DNA of 42,306 nt from Chloroflexota bacterium (GCA_012729455.1 JAAYDC010000021.1:1-42306), one strand, 5' to 3'; counted from the first letter of the stretch, positions 326 to 10,029 are shown. Translations and numbers: made by a program. The notes: generated by a model not told the origin, from the sequence alone.

Positions 326-1171
326 ATGCAGTTAAAAGTCCTGCCAAGCCCCGCACATGCCCACACGCTGGATACAAATCCGCCCATGGTAGAGCTCAGG
401 GATGTCACTGTAGCATATGCAGATAACGCAGTGCTGAACGATGTGACGCTCAGTATCCCACAGGGCGCGCATGTGGCTGTGGTGGGACCCAACGGAGCCG
501 GTAAATCGACGCTCTTCAAGGCGCTGGCAGGGCTGATTCCGCTGCAGCAGGGCAGCATCCTATGGCGGGGCAAGAGCTTGGGTGCCTCGGGGGTGCGCAT
601 CGCCTATATCCCGCAGCGCTGCGAGGTAGATTGGGAGTTTCCCGTGCTGGTGCGCGATGTGGTGCTGATGGGCCGCTACCGCCAGATCGGTTGGCTCCAC
701 CGCCCCAGCGCGCGCGACCAGGCAGCCACCATGGAAGCCCTCGCACAGCTGGGAATCGCCAACCTGGCCACCAGCCCCATCGGCGAGCTTTCCGGCGGGC
801 AGCAGCAACGCGCCTTTTTAGCGCGCTCTCTAGCACAGGAAGCAGAGCTGTTGCTGGCTGATGAGCCCTTTACCGGCGTGGATGCAAGCACCCAGGAAGT
901 GATCCTGCGGGTGTTTGAGGACTTGCGCGAGCGCGGTGTTACCGTACTGGTCTCGACCCACGACCTGAACATGGCCATTAATCGCTTTACAACCAGCATG
1001 TTACTGAACCAACGGCTGATAGCGTTCGGGCCGTCTGAAGAGGTCTTTACCAGCGACCTGGTGCGGCACACCTTTGACAGCCAGGTGTATGAGGTCGATG
1101 GAGGGTTGGTGATCGACCAGTGCTGCTCGCACGACGGTGAGTTTGATAATGCACACGAATTACAAGATTAA
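326..1171 (+). CDS. Mn/Zn-type ABC transporter ATP-binding protein
   Basis: ATPase subunit (281 aa) of a manganese/zinc/iron chelate-type ABC importer (MntB/ZnuC group). Walker A is GPNGAGKST near residue 54, the signature is LSGGQQQR, Walker B is LLLADEPF and the switch is STHD. The stretch PQRCEVDWEFPVLVRDVVL followed by MGRY is typical of the Mn/Zn branch of the family. The N terminus carries about 20 extra residues before the domain, and the tail has a short Cys/His/acidic run (CCSHDGE) that could touch metal, which is inference. It lies 3 bases after the exchanger and 26 bases before the permease. No substrate-binding protein is visible in the window; it could lie upstream of base 1. Confidence 0.9.
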   Translation: MQLKVLPSPAHAHTLDTNPPMVELRDVTVAYADNAVLNDVTLSIPQGAHVAVVGPNGAGKSTLFKALAGLIPLQQGSILWRGKSLGASGVRIAYIPQRCEVDWEFPVLVRDVVLMGRYRQIGWLHRPSARDQAATMEALAQLGIANLATSPIGELSGGQQQRAFLARSLAQEAELLLADEPFTGVDASTQEVILRVFEDLRERGVTVLVSTHDLNMAINRFTTSMLLNQRLIAFGPSEEVFTSDLVRHTFDSQVYEVDGGLVIDQCCSHDGEFDNAHELQD

Positions 1172-1197
1172 CGCATCCACTGCGAGGCTACCATACC

Positions 1198-2043
1198 ATG
1201 TTTGATGTGATCACCGCGCCGCTGATCTATGGCTTTATGCAACGCGGATTGGCAGCCGCCATATTGGTAGGCATAGTTTGCAGCGTCATCGGCTGTTATA
1301 TCGTGCTGCGGGGCATGGCTTTTCTGGGGGATGCCATGGCGCACGCTATTCTTCCGGGTGTGGCAGTGGCCTATCTCCTGCGCGGTAATCTTCTAGTCGG
1401 TGCGTTGGCAGCCGCGATCCTGGTGGCACTCGGTATCGGGACGCTCACGCGCGGTAGCTCAATCAAAGAAGATACCGCCATCGGCATCCTCTTTGCCGCC
1501 AGCCTGGCACTGGGTGTTGCCATGATCAGCTCGCTGCAGAGCTATGCTACCGATCTTTCGCATATCCTGTTTGGCAACATCCTGGGGGTCAGCAATCAGG
1601 ACCTCTTGCTCTGCGGTATTCTGGGTGCTGCTGTACTGGTCGTCGTGGTGATGCTGTACAAGGAATTCCTGCTGGTGGCGTTCGATCCGGTATTGGCTGC
1701 GACGCTGCGCTTGCCGGCCGGGGCTATCAACGCCCTCTTGCTGGTGCTGATCGCTGTTACCGTGGTGATCTCACTGCAGACCGTTGGCGTGGGGCTGGTC
1801 ACGGCCCTGCTGGTGACGCCAGCAGCAACTGCTAGGCTGATCACCCGCCGGCTGGGTACCATGATGCTGCTGAGCGCGGCGTTCGGAGTGATCTCAGCCG
1901 TCGTCGGGTTGTACTTTTCTTATTATGTCAATATTGCTTCGGGACCCGCCATCGTGCTGACGGCTACAGCCATCTTCTTGCTGGTGTTTCTATTTGCGCC
2001 TGCCAAAGGCGTTCTGCCCAGGATGCTGCGCCGTTTGCGCTAA
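1198..2043 (+). CDS. Mn/Zn-type ABC transporter permease
   Basis: Integral membrane permease (281 aa) of the MntC/ZnuB (ABC-3) family, partner of the ATPase just upstream. About eight hydrophobic segments are visible. The N-terminal half has the family hallmark GCYIVLRGMAFLGDAMAHAI followed by LPGVAVAYL, and later TVGVGLVTALLVTPAATARL, which matches the conserved cytoplasmic coupling region. Length is normal for the family. The gene ends 12 bases before the convergent GH15-like gene on the other strand, so this metal operon ends here. Whether it carries Mn, Zn or Fe cannot be decided from the permease sequence. Confidence 0.9.
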   Translation: MFDVITAPLIYGFMQRGLAAAILVGIVCSVIGCYIVLRGMAFLGDAMAHAILPGVAVAYLLRGNLLVGALAAAILVALGIGTLTRGSSIKEDTAIGILFAASLALGVAMISSLQSYATDLSHILFGNILGVSNQDLLLCGILGAAVLVVVVMLYKEFLLVAFDPVLAATLRLPAGAINALLLVLIAVTVVISLQTVGVGLVTALLVTPAATARLITRRLGTMMLLSAAFGVISAVVGLYFSYYVNIASGPAIVLTATAIFLLVFLFAPAKGVLPRMLRRLR

Positions 2044-2055
2044 CTCCCTGCTCTA

Positions 2056-3924
2056 CTATGCAGGTTTTTGCGCTCCCCAATAAGCCGACAGTGCGGCGAT
2101 GCTCACACCCGTTTCCCAGGTGCGTGCGCGGCAGCAGTACGGCTTTGGTTGGCCGTCGCGCTGGTAATACTCGACCCACACTCCAATGCTATCACGCTGC
2201 GCCATCATGCGCTGGTAAGCGGCTTGCGATTGTGGATGCGCCAGGTGAGTGAGTGTCAGACTTAGCAGAGCCGGATCGTAGCCGACAAAACCCTCGATGC
2301 CCGGTACCGAAGGAATCGTGCCGTCTTGGGCGGCCTGCGCCAGAATATGGTCGGCGATAGGTCGCAGTGCGGCTCTATCCAGCACAGGAGAGCCCAAATA
2401 CACCGGCAGCAGCGACACCGAGTTGACCTCGAGCTTGTTCAAAGGCGGTGAGGCTACCTCGCGAGTGTTGTAGCAAATTGGGCAGAGATACTGCCCGCTG
2501 GCGGAACGCTCGAGCCAGCCAAAGTTTTCGGTATAGCAGCCACCGCAGACACCGTGGCGAAAACGCGGAGGGTTCGTCAGGGCTTCACGTTCAGGGGCGT
2601 TGGCCCAGATGCGCGCGCCCTTCACAAAGTGCTGGCGATATGCCGCCTCAGCCTGCAGCACGACTTCACGGGCTGCCGAGGCGTGCTCATCTGACCACAG
2701 GCCCTCTTCGAGCGCCCAGCCGGCCAGCCAGCGTCCAGCCTCAATGAGCGCCAGGGTCGAATCAGCCGAGCCATGGTTGAGCCCGTGGCGCGGATAAAAG
2801 CCGCCCGCCACATAGGTTTCATCGCCGTTAAAGGGCAGCATCCCGCCCGCCAGATGTCGCAGCGGCGTCACCCAGCAGTGCTGCAGGAGCGGCCATAGCG
2901 TACGCACGTAGGTCCTATCACCACTGGCAGCCAGATAATCACGCGCCTGCAGGATGAAATACGAGGTCGTCTCGACCTCATCGTTTTCGTGTACGTGGCG
3001 GATCAGGTCATGCCCGAGGCTCTCGGCGGTCTGCAGTGTGCCATAGCGCTCGAACTTGTGGTAGCGGTAAGCCAGTGCGCGCCGCGCCTCGTCGAGCATC
3101 CCGAGCGCCACGAGTCCGCGGGAGGCTCCATACCCATCGCGCAGATACGCATAGCGAAAGGGCGGTCCGGCGATCAGCCCGCCATCGGCAGACTGGCTGG
3201 TTTTCAGCAGGATAGCAGCATCATCCATGGCCTGCTGCGCCTCTGCATCCGGCGGGATGACCGGTATGCGCGCCTGGCGCTCCGCCGAGAATGCCTCCCA
3301 CCAACGCCGAGTCTGGGAGAGCAGATCTCCAGCGTTACGCCCAGCGAGCGCTTCGGCGACCAGCTTGCCCTCACCCAGGCGCCAGGCCCCGATAACCTGC
3401 AATACCGAGTAGCCCGGCTTGACGACCAGGCACAGACTGTGGGCATCGATCGGCTCAAGGGCGGCTGCCCCTCGCACCGCTACCCAATGGTAGTGCCATA
3501 GCGGATCGCCATAGAACATGATGCGCTGCCCGGGCCGCAGCACACCGAGGTAGGTATCCGGCAGGTCACTGCAGGCTACAACCTGGCTGGCAGCGTTAAA
3601 GGTAATCAACCAAGCGAGCTCGCTGCCCTCTGCCTGAAAGATGCGCGTGTAGATGCTCTGGTCGGGCTGTATGAACTCCGTCATCGCGGCACGCCCGCCA
3701 TCGTAGGCAAGGGAGTGCTGCCAGATGGCAGTACCGGGTTCGCGCTGAGCCTCATCACACAGCTGGATACCCTCTTGCAGCCGTATGCTCAGCGAATCCG
3801 GCGAGCTAAAGGGCGGTCCCGCCAGGGCGGTTACCTCGGGGCCGCACGAAAAGGCGAACATGGCGCCATTACCAAAGGTGTGGATCCCGCCATCATCGGG
3901 AACACCGGTCTGCCAAACACGCAT
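2056..3924 (-). CDS. GH15-like (alpha/alpha)6 glycosidase with zinc ribbon, last gene of the B12 operon
   Basis: Cytosolic 622-aa protein without signal peptide. Residues 1-220 form a beta-rich N-terminal part and ~225-620 an alpha/alpha toroid resembling glucoamylase-like GH15 enzymes, with RYAYLRDGYGASRGLVALGM near 257-276 and HENDEVETTSYFILQARDY near 312-330. Inside the toroid (460-484) sits a CxxC-x17-CxxC cluster (C460, C463, C481, C484), which looks like a structural zinc ribbon and is not standard for GH15. The start at 3924 is chosen because AGGAGG lies about 8 bases upstream; a longer reading to 3990 would overlap the preceding gene. Only 16 bases separate it from that gene, so it should be expressed under the cobalamin riboswitch. 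The substrate is unknown, and a non-catalytic role is possible. Confidence 0.7.
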   Translation of the reverse strand: MRVWQTGVPDDGGIHTFGNGAMFAFSCGPEVTALAGPPFSSPDSLSIRLQEGIQLCDEAQREPGTAIWQHSLAYDGGRAAMTEFIQPDQSIYTRIFQAEGSELAWLITFNAASQVVACSDLPDTYLGVLRPGQRIMFYGDPLWHYHWVAVRGAAALEPIDAHSLCLVVKPGYSVLQVIGAWRLGEGKLVAEALAGRNAGDLLSQTRRWWEAFSAERQARIPVIPPDAEAQQAMDDAAILLKTSQSADGGLIAGPPFRYAYLRDGYGASRGLVALGMLDEARRALAYRYHKFERYGTLQTAESLGHDLIRHVHENDEVETTSYFILQARDYLAASGDRTYVRTLWPLLQHCWVTPLRHLAGGMLPFNGDETYVAGGFYPRHGLNHGSADSTLALIEAGRWLAGWALEEGLWSDEHASAAREVVLQAEAAYRQHFVKGARIWANAPEREALTNPPRFRHGVCGGCYTENFGWLERSASGQYLCPICYNTREVASPPLNKLEVNSVSLLPVYLGSPVLDRAALRPIADHILAQAAQDGTIPSVPGIEGFVGYDPALLSLTLTHLAHPQSQAAYQRMMAQRDSIGVWVEYYQRDGQPKPYCCRARTWETGVSIAALSAYWGAQKPA

Positions 3925-3940
3925 GTCAGATCCTCCTGGC

Positions 3941-4999
3941 TTAGTCGATGCGTCCCTGTCGTTCGCGCCGGCGCCGCAACACCAGCACATAGCCGATCGC
4001 CGTCAGCAGCAAGAGCGCCAGCCCGACAAACGCCCATAACGAACGGCGCTCTTCCGCTGCAGTATCGACGGCAGGCGTGCCGGTGAGTGCCGCATTCGTG
4101 GCTGATTCTGCGATGGCGGTAGCCGAGTGGTCGGGACCGTCGGTAGCCTGGGTCACGGGAACGGTAGCGCTTGGGGTGGCTTGTGCAGCCGCTGTGGCAG
4201 TACGAGCGTTACTCGGCAATGGCGTCAGCAGCCCGCGGGGAGTACGCGTTCCCATCTCAGAATCTGTGTCGGCAACGGACGGTGTATTCGTCGCAGCTTT
4301 TGCATCAGTGGGCTGTCCGCCGGCAGCCTCCGTTTGCGCTGGATAGGGGTCGTAGGTTGGTTCGGCATCTGCCGGGGGAGGTGGTGGCACCTCTGACGTG
4401 CTCGAGCCCGGATCCGGGTAAGGATACGTTTCCTGCGGTATGGTGGTAGGTGCTGTGATCGCTGCGGCTTCCTGTTTGGAGTCTGGCATGGCGCAACCGC
4501 CCAGGCTGGCTGGCGCAGACGGTTTGGTCTTGCCATCACCCCATACCCAGGCATTTACTGAGCCTGGCAGGACGACTTGCTGCGCGGCTCCGCGGCTGGC
4601 ATAGGTCCAGTCTGAGCCAGACCAGACCCAATAGCTCCAATACAGGCAATCCGCGCCCTGGCACTGGCAAAAACAGACCTCTTCTGGGTAAACACATCCG
4701 ACATGCTCGATCTTGCAAACCGTCATCCCCAAGCCGGGGGTCTGCTGCGAGACCATCTGTATGCCCGACCTGACCAGTAACTGTTCACCCGTCAGTTGGG
4801 CTTCGTTAAACTCAACGCAGCGTACCAGGGGAGCGCCGCTGTCGAACAGGATGATCAGGGTCGCCTGGTTGGGCGCTTCTGCATGGCTGGCTGCCCCCGG
4901 CACGCCCAAGAGCATCAACATCAGGATGGTTGTTACAAGGCAGCTGCGTAACTGCGTGGATCTACTCACTGACACCTCTGATGTACAAGATGCAGGCAT
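3941..4999 (-). CDS. Membrane-anchored transcobalamin-like (DUF4430-like) surface protein
   Basis: Exported 352-aa protein. Residues ~15-40 form a signal sequence. Residues ~45-165 form a small beta domain with the pattern LTGEQLLVRSGI, VCKIEHVGC, a Cys-rich CFCQCQGADC, YWSYWVW, W-TYASRGA and NAWVWGDG. This resembles the DUF4430 / transcobalamin-like C-terminal family. Residues ~170-315 are a Pro/Thr/Ala-rich linker, ~320-342 a membrane helix and RRRRERQGR a cytoplasmic anchor. So the beta domain should be displayed outside the cell on a stalk. The start is supported by GGAGG 7 bases upstream. It follows the toroid gene by 29 bases. Assignment to the transcobalamin-like fold is from motif pattern only; ligand binding is inferred from the riboswitch context. 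Confidence 0.72.
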   Translation of the reverse strand: MPASCTSEVSVSRSTQLRSCLVTTILMLMLLGVPGAASHAEAPNQATLIILFDSGAPLVRCVEFNEAQLTGEQLLVRSGIQMVSQQTPGLGMTVCKIEHVGCVYPEEVCFCQCQGADCLYWSYWVWSGSDWTYASRGAAQQVVLPGSVNAWVWGDGKTKPSAPASLGGCAMPDSKQEAAAITAPTTIPQETYPYPDPGSSTSEVPPPPPADAEPTYDPYPAQTEAAGGQPTDAKAATNTPSVADTDSEMGTRTPRGLLTPLPSNARTATAAAQATPSATVPVTQATDGPDHSATAIAESATNAALTGTPAVDTAAEERRSLWAFVGLALLLLTAIGYVLVLRRRRERQGRID

Positions 5000-5028
5000 G
5001 AAGTTGCCTCCATGCCTGCTTGCTTAGA

Positions 5029-7146
5029 TTAGTGTACAGAGAGTGTATAGCTCGCTGCCAGATCGGGCAAGTAGTTGTATACCTGGATCAACACCGTCTC
5101 TCCAGGCACCACTGTCACCTCGGCACTGGCAGAGCCGTCAGATGCGCCGGCTTCGGCTAACGTGCCTGTCTGGTCGTACAGATTAACGCCCAGCGCACGC
5201 GAGACCAGCTTGTCGCCCGGCAGGCCCTCAAGCTCCACTTGCACACTGGAGACACCCTCGGGCACCACCAGGATATAGTAGCGATAGGCGCCTGCGTTCG
5301 AACCGTACAGGGTTGCCGATTGCACCGCATCGAGCGTGATGCTGCTGGCGTACTGAGGAACCACACCGACAGCTATAGGGAAGATAGCGCCGGAAAGCGC
5401 CGGGATCACCTGAGCGGTCGACAGCAGATCACCACCGGTACCTGCTTGCCATTCGAATGAGCCGTCGCTTGTCTGGAAGCCAGCAAGGCATTCAAGCGGG
5501 GTAACGGGCGTCACATCGCCGCGGATCCACTCGTCGGAGCCCTCTGTATCGATGCCCAACGCCGTTAGTGAAGAGATCACCAGTGCCGTCGAGTTGCTAT
5601 CTGAACTAGTCGAGACCGCAAGATCAAATGGAAAACCACTATCGGCGTTCTGCTGGCCGCGCAGGTAGGCAATAGCCGCGTCCACAACCTCGTCACCGCC
5701 TCGCCGGCTGGTAGCTGCCAAAGTCTGCAAGACAATGGCCGTCGAGTTGGTATCGCTAGCTTCCCCAGCGGCCCATCCCCAGCCGCCATCGCTGTTTTGT
5801 TGGCTGATCAGCCAATCCACCGCAGGCTGCGGCAGCGTGGCACCGGTCGCCAGCACACCCCAGATCGCCAGCGACTGGTTCCATATACTCTGGTAACTGT
5901 CGTACAGGCCGGTTGAGGGATCATAGGCTTGTGCGAACATCTCCGCCAGCAACGGATTTACGCTGAGCGGGTTGATCCCTGCCAGACTTAGCCCGGCTGC
6001 AAGACGGCCAGCGGTGCCCACATCCTGGGGGGCAGCAGCAGGCGAGGCCAGGTAATCGAGCAGCGAATCTCCTGCCGCATTGCGCCACTCAGCCGGGTTA
6101 CGGCCAGCAGCTGCAACCGCCAGCAGGACCTGCGAGCTGGGCCCCAGACTGCCAAAGGAGCCGGCATAGCTGCCATCCGGCTGCTGCATGGCCTGCAGGG
6201 CTGCCAGAGCTCTATCACGTGACGCGGCAACATTGGTATAAACGAGGCTACGGCCCAATAAAGCCGGGATGGCCTGTGCCGTCGCCAGCAGGTTGGCATC
6301 GGTATCGGCCTGCCAGACAAAGGCGCCATTTTCGAGCTGGAACCCCAGCAGCGCCTCTGCGGGTGTAAGGCCATTAGAAAACAGAGAAGCATCGTCTCCA
6401 GCCACGCCCAGTGCGAGCAGGGCTTGCAGCGAGGTGGCCGTTGAGTTGGCATCCGCATCAGTGCCCCAGTCGCTCGAGAAGGTAAACCCGCCCTGCGGGC
6501 TCAGCTGCGTTACCAGATAGTTGCTGCCGCGCGTGAGCACGGCCTTTTCAACACGGGCTGCCAGGAGTGCCTGCAGCACGAACGCCGTGGTGTTGGAATC
6601 GGTACCATAGCCCGGGCCCCATTCCCAGCCACCATTGGTTTGCTGCAGGTCAACCAGGCTCTTAACGAGCTTGGCCGGCAAGGCTTCGCCAGCAGCGCGT
6701 AAACCCAACAAGCTCCAGGCTGCTGCAATGGCGGTCATCTCTTCCGGGGGCGTATCCGCGAGCTGCCCGTTAAGATGCTCCACCAGGTTCATACTGCCGA
6801 ACGCCCGTGGGTCTGCCCCAGCCATCGAGACGGCGGTGAGCAGTTTGCCGGTAGCGCCCGCGTCGGTGGTATAGCCCTCTGCCTGTTCAGCCAGATAGCC
6901 GAGAGCGGCAGAGACATCCCGCCGGGCGGCAGTCTGCGCCAAAACGGCTTCGATCGTCATTGAGGCGCTGTCGCCATAAGAGCCATCGGGGGCCTGCTGC
7001 GAGGCAAGCCAGCCGAGAGCGCGCTCGACTGCATTCGCGTGCGCTGGCGCCTGCCCGAGCGCTACGCCCGGGAACGCAGCCAACAGAAGAGAAACGACCA
7101 GCAGCCAAACGACGATGCGCCGGCTGCGCAATGATACTGTGTGCAT
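5029..7146 (-). CDS. Secreted tandem alpha/alpha-toroid protein (prenyltransferase/intrinsic-factor-like repeats)
   Basis: Exported 705-aa protein with a signal peptide (residues 1-31, RRIVVWLLVVSLLLAAFPG). Residues ~38-300 and ~305-575 are two similar alpha/alpha toroids built of repeats such as QTNGGWEWGPGYGTDSNTTA and QNSDGGWGWAAGEASDTNST. Each half ends in a matching unit (LLGFQLENGAFVWQADTDAN and LAGFQTSDGSFEWQAGTGGD), so the protein arose by internal duplication. Residues ~590-705 form a beta-sandwich-like C-terminal domain. Pfam would probably call the repeats prenyltransferase/squalene oxidase, but no DxDD cyclase motif is present and the protein is secreted. The same fold forms the B12-binding alpha domain of intrinsic factor and transcobalamin. 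Start: AAGGAGG, 4 bases, ATG. It is the first gene behind the cobalamin riboswitch. Confidence 0.78.
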   Translation of the reverse strand: MHTVSLRSRRIVVWLLVVSLLLAAFPGVALGQAPAHANAVERALGWLASQQAPDGSYGDSASMTIEAVLAQTAARRDVSAALGYLAEQAEGYTTDAGATGKLLTAVSMAGADPRAFGSMNLVEHLNGQLADTPPEEMTAIAAAWSLLGLRAAGEALPAKLVKSLVDLQQTNGGWEWGPGYGTDSNTTAFVLQALLAARVEKAVLTRGSNYLVTQLSPQGGFTFSSDWGTDADANSTATSLQALLALGVAGDDASLFSNGLTPAEALLGFQLENGAFVWQADTDANLLATAQAIPALLGRSLVYTNVAASRDRALAALQAMQQPDGSYAGSFGSLGPSSQVLLAVAAAGRNPAEWRNAAGDSLLDYLASPAAAPQDVGTAGRLAAGLSLAGINPLSVNPLLAEMFAQAYDPSTGLYDSYQSIWNQSLAIWGVLATGATLPQPAVDWLISQQNSDGGWGWAAGEASDTNSTAIVLQTLAATSRRGGDEVVDAAIAYLRGQQNADSGFPFDLAVSTSSDSNSTALVISSLTALGIDTEGSDEWIRGDVTPVTPLECLAGFQTSDGSFEWQAGTGGDLLSTAQVIPALSGAIFPIAVGVVPQYASSITLDAVQSATLYGSNAGAYRYYILVVPEGVSSVQVELEGLPGDKLVSRALGVNLYDQTGTLAEAGASDGSASAEVTVVPGETVLIQVYNYLPDLAASYTLSVH

Positions 7147-7230
7147 GGTACCTCCTTATATGTAATGAATTGGTAACAACACGGACCCAGTTTGTGCGAT
7201 AGCTGCTCCTTCCCTCGTCGGCCGGGCAAC

Positions 7231-7252
7231 AAAACCCCCCCGCGAAGGGGGG
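7231..7252 (-). terminator. Intrinsic terminator of the cobalamin riboswitch
   Basis: On the minus strand a C6 / G6 stem with a TTCGC loop is followed directly by TTTTG. It lies between the riboswitch core and the first gene (7146), the usual place of a transcription-attenuation expression platform. Just upstream, GGGTA-AAGC-TACCC (about 7264-7250) can form an alternative hairpin that uses the C bases of the terminator stem, so it is a candidate antiterminator. Confidence 0.8.
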
Positions 7253-7300
7253 TAGCTTTACCCATCCCGCCGCCTTTGACTCGAAGGCCGAGGTTGTATA

Positions 7301-7412
7301 GTCGTCAGGCTGGGACCTGGCTCGTCTTGCGACTTACAGTTGCGGCACAGCGCCGGACTCGCACCGGCTTCACCATCGCGCTCGCGGCATCCGGGCCAAC
7401 GAGCACCTGACC
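7301..7412 (-). promoter_or_regulatory. Cobalamin riboswitch
   Basis: Read on the minus strand, the leader holds GAAGCCGGTGCGAGTCCGGC then GCTGTGCCGCAACTGTAA (7371-7332), which closely matches the conserved B12-box core of cobalamin riboswitches. It continues with AGCCAGGTCCCAGCCTGAC. The first bases GTCAGG (near 7411) pair with CCTGAC (near 7304), closing the outer stem. It sits directly after a strong promoter and before an intrinsic terminator and the toroid gene. In known members of this RNA class adenosyl- or methylcobalamin binding lowers expression, so the operon 7146-2056 should be induced when B12 is scarce. Confidence 0.92.
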
Positions 7413-7418
7413 ATATTT

Positions 7419-7447
7419 ATCATAAACTAGCACCCGGCCGCTGTCAA
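7419..7447 (-). promoter_or_regulatory. Sigma70 promoter of the B12 operon
   Basis: On the minus strand, TTGACA (7447-7442), a 17-base spacer and TATGAT (7424-7419): a perfect -35 and a 5/6 -10. The expected start of transcription, around 7412, coincides with the first base-paired segment of the riboswitch. Confidence 0.82.
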
Positions 7448-7457
7448 GCGCAAGAGA

Positions 7458-7486
7458 TTGCGGGGCATGTGGGGCACCGTTATACT
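7458..7486 (+). promoter_or_regulatory. Promoter of the GH116 gene
   Basis: TTGCGG (7458-7463), a 17-base spacer and TATACT (7481-7486), upstream of the AGGAGG-ATG of the GH116 gene. It diverges from the riboswitch promoter, with 10 bases between the two -35 boxes. The same two hexamers with the same spacing recur at 14608-14636. Confidence 0.6.
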
Positions 7487-7521
7487 TGCTCCAAACGTGC
7501 GGCAATACTAGGAGGTGCCCG

Positions 7522-10029
7522 ATGCAGCCAACACCGACGACTTACCCGGTCCTTAGAACCTATGAGGGCGCGTATCTCGCGCGCGTGGCCCTGCCGTTGG
7601 GCGGTATCGGCACAGGCACCGTCTCGCTGGGCGGTCGCGGCCAGCTTCAGGATTGGGAAATCTACGACCAGCCAGCAAAAGGCTTTGACGGCCAGTCGGT
7701 GGTGATCCTGTACGCCAGGCCAGAAGGCCATCCAGCCGTATGCCGCGTATTAGAAGGTGTGCTGCGGCCACCCTACGAGGGCGCCATGGGGGCACGCGCT
7801 CCCTATCACGGCCTGCCGCGCATGCGCAGCTGCCGTTATGGCACGGCATACCCGTTCGCACAGGTCGACCTGGCTGATCCCGATGTACCGCTCGAGGTGA
7901 GCCTGCAGGCATTCAACCCGTTTATCCCAGCAGATGCCGACCGCAGCGGTTTGCCGGTCGCCTGTCTGCGCTATATTCTGCGCAACCCCGGCGTACGAGC
8001 AGTGGACGCCACCATCAGCTTTAGCCTGCGCAACTTTATCGGCAATCGCGACGGCGCCGCCAAAGGGCATGGCAACCGCAACCAGTGGATACGCACTGGC
8101 ACTCTGCAAGGGCTTTGTCTGACTGCCTCCGAGCTAGACCCTCATGACCCTTGCTGGGGCAGCCTGGCGCTGGCCACCAGTCATGCCGATGTGACCTACA
8201 AACTATCGTGGGGGCAGGAATCCTGGGGCTGGGGCGGGCTGCTCCTGCACCACTGGGACGACCTGCTTGAGGATGGCCGACTGGATGCCCAGGACTCGAT
8301 GGGCCTCAACCCGATCGGATCGCTGGCGGCCAGCTGCCGCCTGGGGCCCGGCGAATTGGTCGAGATCCCCTTTTACCTGGCGTGGCACATGCCCAATCGC
8401 ATGACTTGGACACCGCTTACTCCCGACAAAGCGCCATCTGAGGGCTGCGGTTGCCAGTCGGAGGACTGTGTGGGCAACTATTACACCACCTGTTTCGCGA
8501 ATGCCTGGGATGCGCTCGTGCAGACGGCAGAGCATGCCAGCGAGCTCGAGCATAAAACGCTGCAGTTCACCACAACGTTCCTGGCGTCCGACCTGCCCGA
8601 AACCGTCAAGGAAGCCGCTCTGTTTAACCTTTCGACCCTGCGCTGCCAGACTAGCTTTCGCACCGCCGACGGCACCTTTTGTGGTTGGGAGGGTTGCGGA
8701 GACAACTACGGCAGCTGCCACGGTTCCTGCACGCATGTCTGGAACTATGAACAGGCGATTGCCTTTCTTTTTGGCAGCCTTTCCTGGAGCATGCGCACCG
8801 TCGAGTTCAACGACATGCTCCAGCCCAACGGTCTGATGAACTTTCGCGTGCCGCTCCCGCGCGCACGTGCCCCGCGCTACCTGCTGGCCGCTGCCGATGG
8901 CCAGATGGGCTGCCTGATGAAACTCTACCGCGACTGGCAGCTTTCGGGCGATACGTCCGCCCTACAAGCCCTGTGGCCGGCCGCAAAAAAGGCGCTCGCA
9001 TTTGCCTGGCTGCCGGGCGGTTGGGATGCCGACCAAGACGGCGTGATGGAGGGCTGCCAGCACAACACCCTCGATGTCGAGTACTATGGGCCCAACCCGC
9101 TTATGGCCGGCTGGTATCTGGGGGCACTGCGTGCCGGGGCGCAGATAGCCGAATTCCTTGGTGACGACGATTTTGCTGTGCACTGCCGGTCGCTGGCTGA
9201 GCAAGGGGCGGCTTGGGTGGATGCCAACCTCTTTAACGGCGACTATTACGAGCAGCATATCCAACCGCCGGATTCGGCCGAGGCGATCCTGCCGGGACTG
9301 CGCTCCGACATGGGCGCGGTAGACCTGGCTGACCCGGATTACCAGCTCGGTGCCGGATGCCTGGTCGATCAGCTCGTGGGGCAGCTGCTGGCGCACGTCT
9401 GCGGTCTGGGGTATCTGCTGGATGAGGAGCACGTCAAGCAAACCCTGCAAAGCATCTGGCGCTATAACCACCACGATAATCTATATGGACACTTTAACCA
9501 CCTACGCACCTTTGCGCTGAATGACGAACGCGCCATGCTGATGGTCAGTTACCCGCGCGGCAGACGCCCGCACACGCCGGTGCCCTACTTTAACGAGGTC
9601 ATGACCGGTTTTGAGTATTCGGCAGCGGTACACATGCTCTACGAGGGATTGACCGATCAGGGCCTGCAGGCGATTGCCGATATCCGCGCGCGTTACGACG
9701 GCCAGCGCCGCAACCCCTACAACGAAGCCGAATGCGGCCACCACTATGCGCGCGCGATGTGCTCATGGGCAGCGGTCCTGGCGCTTTCTGGTTTTCGTTA
9801 CAACGCCATCGATGCCGAAATGCGCTTTGGCGGACACGCCGGCAGGCACTTTTGGTCGACCGGATACGCCTGGGGGAGCTGCCTTATCACGAAGGCGGAT
9901 GACGGCCGGCACACCGAGCTGCAGGTGCTGGGCGGCGAGGTACGGATCGCGCAGCTCGTCATCGGCGAACATCCGCACAGACTGCCTGAAGCGCGCGTGC
10001 TGCGTGAGGGCGACCAGCTCACGGTATAA
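7522..10029 (+). CDS. GH116 glycosidase (beta-glucosidase / glucosylceramidase-like)
   Basis: Cytosolic 835-aa enzyme of the GH116 family (GBA2-like, inverting fold with beta N-terminal domain and (alpha/alpha)6 catalytic domain). The N terminus carries VALPLGGIGTGTVSLGGRGQ, typical of the family's N-terminal domain. The likely nucleophile E410 is in THVWNYEQAIAFLF, and the likely acid/base D518 is in QHNTLDVEYYGPNPLMAGWY; both motifs match characterised bacterial GH116 enzymes. The downstream RRPHTPVPYFNEVMTGFEYS is also characteristic. The start is set at 7522 because AGGAGG lies 7 bases upstream; an in-frame ATG at 7486 overlaps the promoter. No signal peptide, so it acts on imported beta-glucosides or xylosides. 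It stands alone between a divergent and a convergent gene. Confidence 0.92.
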   Translation: MQPTPTTYPVLRTYEGAYLARVALPLGGIGTGTVSLGGRGQLQDWEIYDQPAKGFDGQSVVILYARPEGHPAVCRVLEGVLRPPYEGAMGARAPYHGLPRMRSCRYGTAYPFAQVDLADPDVPLEVSLQAFNPFIPADADRSGLPVACLRYILRNPGVRAVDATISFSLRNFIGNRDGAAKGHGNRNQWIRTGTLQGLCLTASELDPHDPCWGSLALATSHADVTYKLSWGQESWGWGGLLLHHWDDLLEDGRLDAQDSMGLNPIGSLAASCRLGPGELVEIPFYLAWHMPNRMTWTPLTPDKAPSEGCGCQSEDCVGNYYTTCFANAWDALVQTAEHASELEHKTLQFTTTFLASDLPETVKEAALFNLSTLRCQTSFRTADGTFCGWEGCGDNYGSCHGSCTHVWNYEQAIAFLFGSLSWSMRTVEFNDMLQPNGLMNFRVPLPRARAPRYLLAAADGQMGCLMKLYRDWQLSGDTSALQALWPAAKKALAFAWLPGGWDADQDGVMEGCQHNTLDVEYYGPNPLMAGWYLGALRAGAQIAEFLGDDDFAVHCRSLAEQGAAWVDANLFNGDYYEQHIQPPDSAEAILPGLRSDMGAVDLADPDYQLGAGCLVDQLVGQLLAHVCGLGYLLDEEHVKQTLQSIWRYNHHDNLYGHFNHLRTFALNDERAMLMVSYPRGRRPHTPVPYFNEVMTGFEYSAAVHMLYEGLTDQGLQAIADIRARYDGQRRNPYNEAECGHHYARAMCSWAAVLALSGFRYNAIDAEMRFGGHAGRHFWSTGYAWGSCLITKADDGRHTELQVLGGEVRIAQLVIGEHPHRLPEARVLREGDQLTV

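Follow-up and report, generated by a model that had tools for sequence, protein, structure and literature searches.

What is a cell served by when a cobalamin riboswitch governs exported proteins and no vitamin B12 transporter is encoded beside them? The question is raised by an operon on the minus strand of a 42,306-nucleotide stretch of DNA from a Chloroflexota bacterium (GCA_012729455.1 JAAYDC010000021.1:1-42306; the window hereafter means this whole stretch). Its first gene encodes a predicted secreted protein of two tandem alpha/alpha toroids (P0002) and its second a stalked protein with a small beta domain, predicted to be anchored in the membrane (P0001). Very probably, the operon supplies the part of a B12 uptake system that captures cobamides outside the cell, for the benefit of an energy-coupling factor (ECF) transporter. 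The features from which this reading starts are as follows.

7447-7419, minus strand: sigma-70-type promoter-like site TTGACA-17-TATGAT (11/12, a consensus match only; 1 found against 0.2 in shuffled sequences)
7291-7425, minus strand: cobalamin riboswitch aptamer RF00174, full length (model positions 1-189), scoring 48.2 bits with the covariance model (gathering score 31.5)
7253-7234, minus strand: intrinsic-terminator-like hairpin between aptamer and P0002, 8-pair stem with short T tail
5029-7146, minus strand: P0002, tandem alpha/alpha-toroid protein, predicted secreted, 705 amino acids, signal peptide-like N-terminus
6232-7056, minus strand: first toroid of P0002, residues about 31-305
5377-6231, minus strand: second toroid of P0002, residues 306-590
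5032-5376, minus strand: C-terminal domain of P0002, residues 591-705, no family assigned; by itself matches other proteins of the class
3941-4999, minus strand: P0001, 352 amino acids, predicted secreted and membrane-anchored, with a signal peptide and a beta (SLBB) domain of transcobalamin type
4502-4885, minus strand: beta domain of P0001, modelled over residues 39-166 (about 43-165), 50-sequence alignment
4046-4504, minus strand: Pro/Thr/Ser/Ala-rich stalk of P0001, residues 166-318, about 155 residues, 58% P/T/S/A
3971-4045, minus strand: membrane-spanning segment near the C-terminus of P0001, residues 319-343 (mean hydropathy reaching 2.58), with an Arg-rich basic tail after it

The leader agrees with the preliminary description of this DNA, which had claimed a strong promoter, a cobalamin riboswitch and an intrinsic terminator; the covariance search, fixed beforehand as the check on which the riboswitch claim could fail, placed it above the gathering threshold of its family. 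The hairpin is likely the expression platform of the riboswitch, as far as can be read from the sequence. The folding stability of the leader RNA does not exceed that of shuffled sequences (z -0.7) and is not used as evidence.

Regarding P0001, the kinship of its beta domain was addressed with an AlphaFold2 model built from the P0001 domain with relatives' sequences (predicted local distance difference test, pLDDT, 94; predicted template-modelling score, pTM, 0.87). Against solved structures the model gives Z 12.5 with haptocorrin and 12.1 with both intrinsic factor and transcobalamin; over the animal carriers as a whole the values are Z 11.1-12.5 across 97-101 residues, the bacterial DUF4430-type structure 3u7z gives Z 11.7, and the remaining folds stay at Z 6.0 or below. 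As modelled, the domain thus folds like the beta domain of transcobalamin and intrinsic factor, and a Cys and a Trp are conserved in it. At E≤1, Pfam DUF4430 (PF14478) matched neither P0001 nor any reading frame of this genome, while control genomes did match, and the 50-sequence profile found no transcobalamin-type chain among the PDB sequences; the relationship therefore rests on structure. P0001 also matches NCBIfam SCO2322_fam at 7.7e-4, below the cut-off of that family. The domain had been described as DUF4430/transcobalamin-like, of which the fold is upheld and membership of the Pfam family is not; the long stalk and membrane fixation described with it are found in the sequence, from residue 166 to the basic tail.

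The two genes and the riboswitch recur together in relatives. In a survey of 150 genomes of the class, relatives of P0001 were found in 74 and relatives of P0002 in 78. Among the riboswitches listed, a same-strand cobalamin riboswitch lies no more than 1.6 kb upstream at 51 or more of the 73 toroid places (median gap 286 bases), and 10 of the other 22 places, when scanned directly, all had one, which brings the total to at least 61 of 73. Since a genome of 2-6 Mb holds 1-4 such riboswitches, practically no pairing would be expected by chance. A toroid lies within 3 kb of the beta domain at 65 of 74 beta-domain places, so that the survey, proposed at the outset for this linkage, bears it out on both counts. 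Among 80 named loci, nearly all from Chloroflexota, a toroid is present in 69 and EcfS in 51; these are loci other than the window's own, and many of them end at contig boundaries. In the usual operon the riboswitch is followed by the toroid gene, by genes for one or two beta-domain proteins and then by EcfT, EcfAA' and EcfS; some relatives add an ATP:corrinoid adenosyltransferase (e.g., loci L035 and L062). The same operon is found with cobalamin riboswitches in Streptomyces sp. SAT1 and related replicons, and also in Embleya; the Streptomyces type comprises a beta domain-toroid fusion, a stalked anchored beta-domain protein, EcfT, an ATPase and EcfS, and at one locus (L192) the riboswitch match is partial and on the opposite strand. 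L190, L191 and L192 are Streptomycetaceae linear replicons listed as plasmids, where the annotation of the fused protein goes no further than prenyltransferase/squalene oxidase repeat protein. A tblastn search of plasmids with P0002 gave no match. In Polyangium (Myxococcota), a lone small beta-domain protein of this family occurs at L118 (8818-9390) and L156 (8839-9390) with no toroid or ECF genes nearby.

B12-requiring bacteria mostly depend on import, and the preliminary description supposed that uptake would be completed elsewhere. This is confirmed, and the absence of a transporter from the window explained, by contig C30, where an adenosyltransferase-ECF operon (CobA-EcfT-EcfAA'-EcfS, with frames overlapping or abutting) stands directly behind the only other cobalamin riboswitch of the genome. 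The ECF set is complete by profiles (PF02361 for EcfT, TIGR04520/TIGR04521 over cut-off for two EcfA domains, and PF07155 over cut-off for the S component). Its closest relative, G068, is arranged in the same way, with two loci and their riboswitches. No FecCD permease (BtuC type) was found in this genome (G000) at E≤0.01, and BtuFCD was rejected as the partner on this ground. CbiC was likewise not found in this genome, corrinoid-binding proteins are present, and the gene content fits a B12 consumer without de novo synthesis. In another genome of the same family, G134, a strong FecCD-type permease (1e-93) lies at C283:4849-5820 (L076), and in that organism import may run through a BtuCDF-type system, in place of the ECF set or alongside it.

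Natural fusions join the parts of the system in both directions. The window has separate toroid and beta-domain genes, and so no protein of the transcobalamin/intrinsic factor family in its whole form, with both modules in one chain, whereas some relatives have the one-chain form (L030, L037, L039, L040, L044 and others). In addition, the beta domain is fused to EcfS in five genomes of one family (L040, at 5625-7817, and L042, L063, L090, L091). Since the beta domain is common to both types of fusion, they support a pair that closes on a cobamide and hands it to EcfS. In the beta-domain tree, the ten toroid-fused rows belong to one group of 18 rows and the five EcfS-fused rows to a different one; P0001 lies outside the toroid-fused group, and because deep support is weak (71/83) no orthology is claimed. 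Fusion also occurs among the transporter genes themselves. At L054 (7434-11417, plus strand; same organism as L135), EcfS, EcfT and two ABC ATPase domains share a 1327-amino-acid frame, apparently a whole ECF transporter as a single polypeptide, which adjoins a gene for a fused beta domain and toroid and also another beta-domain gene; at L158 (10230-14468, plus strand) a single 1412-amino-acid frame with EcfS and EcfT matches is another fused ECF transporter.

Taken as a mechanism, low intracellular cobalamin would cause the riboswitch to allow read-through at the terminator. Both proteins would then be exported, the stalked beta-domain protein staying fixed in the cytoplasmic membrane; the toroid and the beta domain would close on the cobamide as two chains, in the style of transcobalamin and intrinsic factor. 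The anchored beta domain would deliver the ligand to EcfS of the transporter encoded on C30, the ATPases of that transporter would power import, and the ATP:corrinoid adenosyltransferase would turn the product into adenosylcobalamin. The preliminary description had spoken of split transcobalamin-like modules under B12-riboswitch control, which the covariance match, the fold and the linkage in relatives sustain, and of a device for B12 capture or storage. Capture for uptake is preferred and storage set aside as the main role, because in relatives a single operon holds the pair together with the transporter. It can still be asked whether the pair binds some other extracellular corrinoid or precursor, such as cobinamide or pseudocobalamin, or detains B12 as a surface store, with no direct hand-over to EcfS. 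Transcobalamin-family binders vary in corrinoid specificity, the riboswitch reports the intracellular product only, and the transporter of this genome is in a separate operon, all of which speak for this alternative; the joining of toroid, beta domain and ECF genes in one operon in relatives and the beta domain-EcfS fusions point instead to hand-over, and the alternative is held to be possible but rather unlikely.

With regard to the toroids, the claim of a secreted tandem toroid protein holds: P0002 has a signal peptide-like segment and a pair of toroids, and its two halves agree at 97 of 279 positions (35% identity), with an alignment score of 348 against 46 ± 9 for shuffled sequences. It matches Pfam Prenyltrans/SQHop_cyclase, and NCBIfam SCO2321_fam at 4.8e-39, which is below the cut-off of that family. 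The fold was compared on the beta domain-toroid fusion of a relative, L044, and not on P0002 (pLDDT 92, pTM 0.80); the best match of its predicted toroid is squalene-hopene cyclase (Z 26.1, against Z 20.5 for intrinsic factor). As modelled, the toroid fold resembles transcobalamin no more closely than it does terpene cyclases and does not by itself separate a carrier from an enzyme. The domain order in L044 is the reverse of that in transcobalamin. The family and fold matches are what a secreted terpene cyclase, or another toroid enzyme acting on lipids, would be expected to give, its control by B12 then being incidental. However, the class II terpene cyclase motif DXDD is absent from P0002, for which a terpene cyclase identity was rejected on this account, and DXDD[TS]A is absent from 43 related toroids; the export signal, the proximity to ECF genes and the pairing with a beta domain of transcobalamin type, by linkage or by fusion, also argue against an enzyme, which makes this explanation extremely improbable. 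Export and genomic context favour the carrier.

Several points weigh against a cobamide-capturing pair that feeds the ECF transporter. Cobalamin binding by P0001 and P0002 is predicted and their two-chain complex putative, the toroid of L044 is structurally nearer to squalene-hopene cyclase than to intrinsic factor, and the beta domain is recognised neither by PF14478 nor by PDB sequence profiles. On the side of the transporter, the C30 S component matches the Pfam riboflavin-type S-component family and no solved CbrT (a search of the PDB with the EcfS profile gave no match), so that the riboswitch and the adenosyltransferase are the grounds on which its substrate is assigned. Three genomes of the same family (G036, G095, G115) have a separate ECF locus with no detectable riboswitch before the ECF genes, and the case against de novo synthesis is drawn from a single marker, CbiC.

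The system was compared with those already known. Animal carriers (transcobalamin, intrinsic factor, haptocorrin) likewise combine an alpha/alpha toroid with a beta-grasp beta domain; here there are two chains, the toroid is in tandem, the beta domain is anchored, and identity is 11-16%. To our knowledge, ECF importers are held to bind their substrate by the membrane S component alone, and little is known of how monoderm-like bacteria and Chloroflexota catch B12 outside the cell. The chances are about even that an ECF transporter here uses an extracellular two-chain trap, of toroid and tethered beta domain, that hands B12 to an EcfS sometimes fused to the beta domain. If so, the trap would be a bacterial counterpart of the carrier-receptor relay of transcobalamin and a possible source of its modules, which bears on the proposal of a bacterial origin for the architecture of animal B12 carriers. 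The natural fusions make the hand-over from capture to transporter directly testable. A family missed by DUF4430 is, moreover, tied to B12 through riboswitches, adenosyltransferase and ECF genes in many Chloroflexota genomes and some Actinomycetota.

A transcobalamin clade of SLBB domains was defined in bacteria by Burroughs et al. (2007; PMC1796856), with toroid fusions, an extracellular location and operons containing CbiO- and CbiQ-like genes, and B12 scavenging was proposed. The proteins described there resemble ours in having SLBB domains that are secreted or anchored, in many cases accompanied by toroids, beside such genes, but the stress was on low-GC Gram-positives and planctomycetes and riboswitches were unmentioned; the present case differs in being a Chloroflexota/Actinomycetota branch outside PF14478, with riboswitch control, operons split within one genome and beta domain-EcfS fusions. 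ECF-CbrT of Lactobacillus delbrueckii is a proven B12 importer whose gene cluster includes the adenosyltransferase PduO (PMC5997447). The ECF-type import and the clustered adenosyltransferase are shared with it, whereas CbrT itself binds the substrate, an extracellular toroid/beta-domain protein is not described there, and the C30 S component has no sequence match to CbrT. BtuG and BtuH of Bacteroidetes are proven surface B12 binders that catch the vitamin for a transporter and are encoded in B12 transport loci, as here; they are, however, lipoproteins working with the outer-membrane BtuB, and the abstracts on them name no transcobalamin-type modules (PMC6143338, PMC8941943). The NCBIfam families SCO2321 and SCO2322 are matched by P0002 and P0001 and the Streptomycetaceae replicons carry the homologous operon, but the matches are below the NCBI cut-offs and the families have no assigned function. 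The literature search, with subscription papers and preprints outside its scope, returned no description of the riboswitch-linked Chloroflexota/Actinomycetota branch, the beta domain-EcfS fusions or the two-operon form. The kind of system was thus already predicted in 2007, and what is new is this riboswitch-linked branch, the fusions to EcfS and the two-operon form.

The operon ends with a third gene.

2056-3924, minus strand: P0003, 622 amino acids, likely start ATG at 3924 with AGGAGG upstream, not at 3990

Its start lies 16 nucleotides past the end of P0001, and it is probably co-transcribed with P0001 and P0002. P0003 has no Pfam, NCBIfam or clear PDB match, and it was found in 2 of the 150 genomes, namely this one and G068, where it also stands directly behind the beta-domain gene; as a working part of the system it was rejected on this count, and by its distribution it would be a lineage-specific passenger unrelated to transport. 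The interval 2056-7447, first delimited as one system, therefore stands for P0002 and P0001 as the conserved pair, with P0003 inside the interval and outside the system. Together with the long stalk and membrane anchor of P0001, a downstream gene unrelated to transport could suggest an operon for surface adhesion or the cell envelope, in which toroid and beta domain are structural and the control by cobalamin reflects a lifestyle switch. The recurrence of the genes in operons with ECF and adenosyltransferase genes, in both Chloroflexota and Actinomycetota, and a beta domain of B12-carrier type argue against this reading, which is very unlikely.

Among the neighbouring genes, a zinc/manganese-type metal ABC transporter ATPase-permease pair (window 326-2043, plus strand) is convergent toward the operon and unrelated to it, with no adjoining substrate-binding protein, and a GH116-type gene lies on the plus strand beyond the riboswitch.

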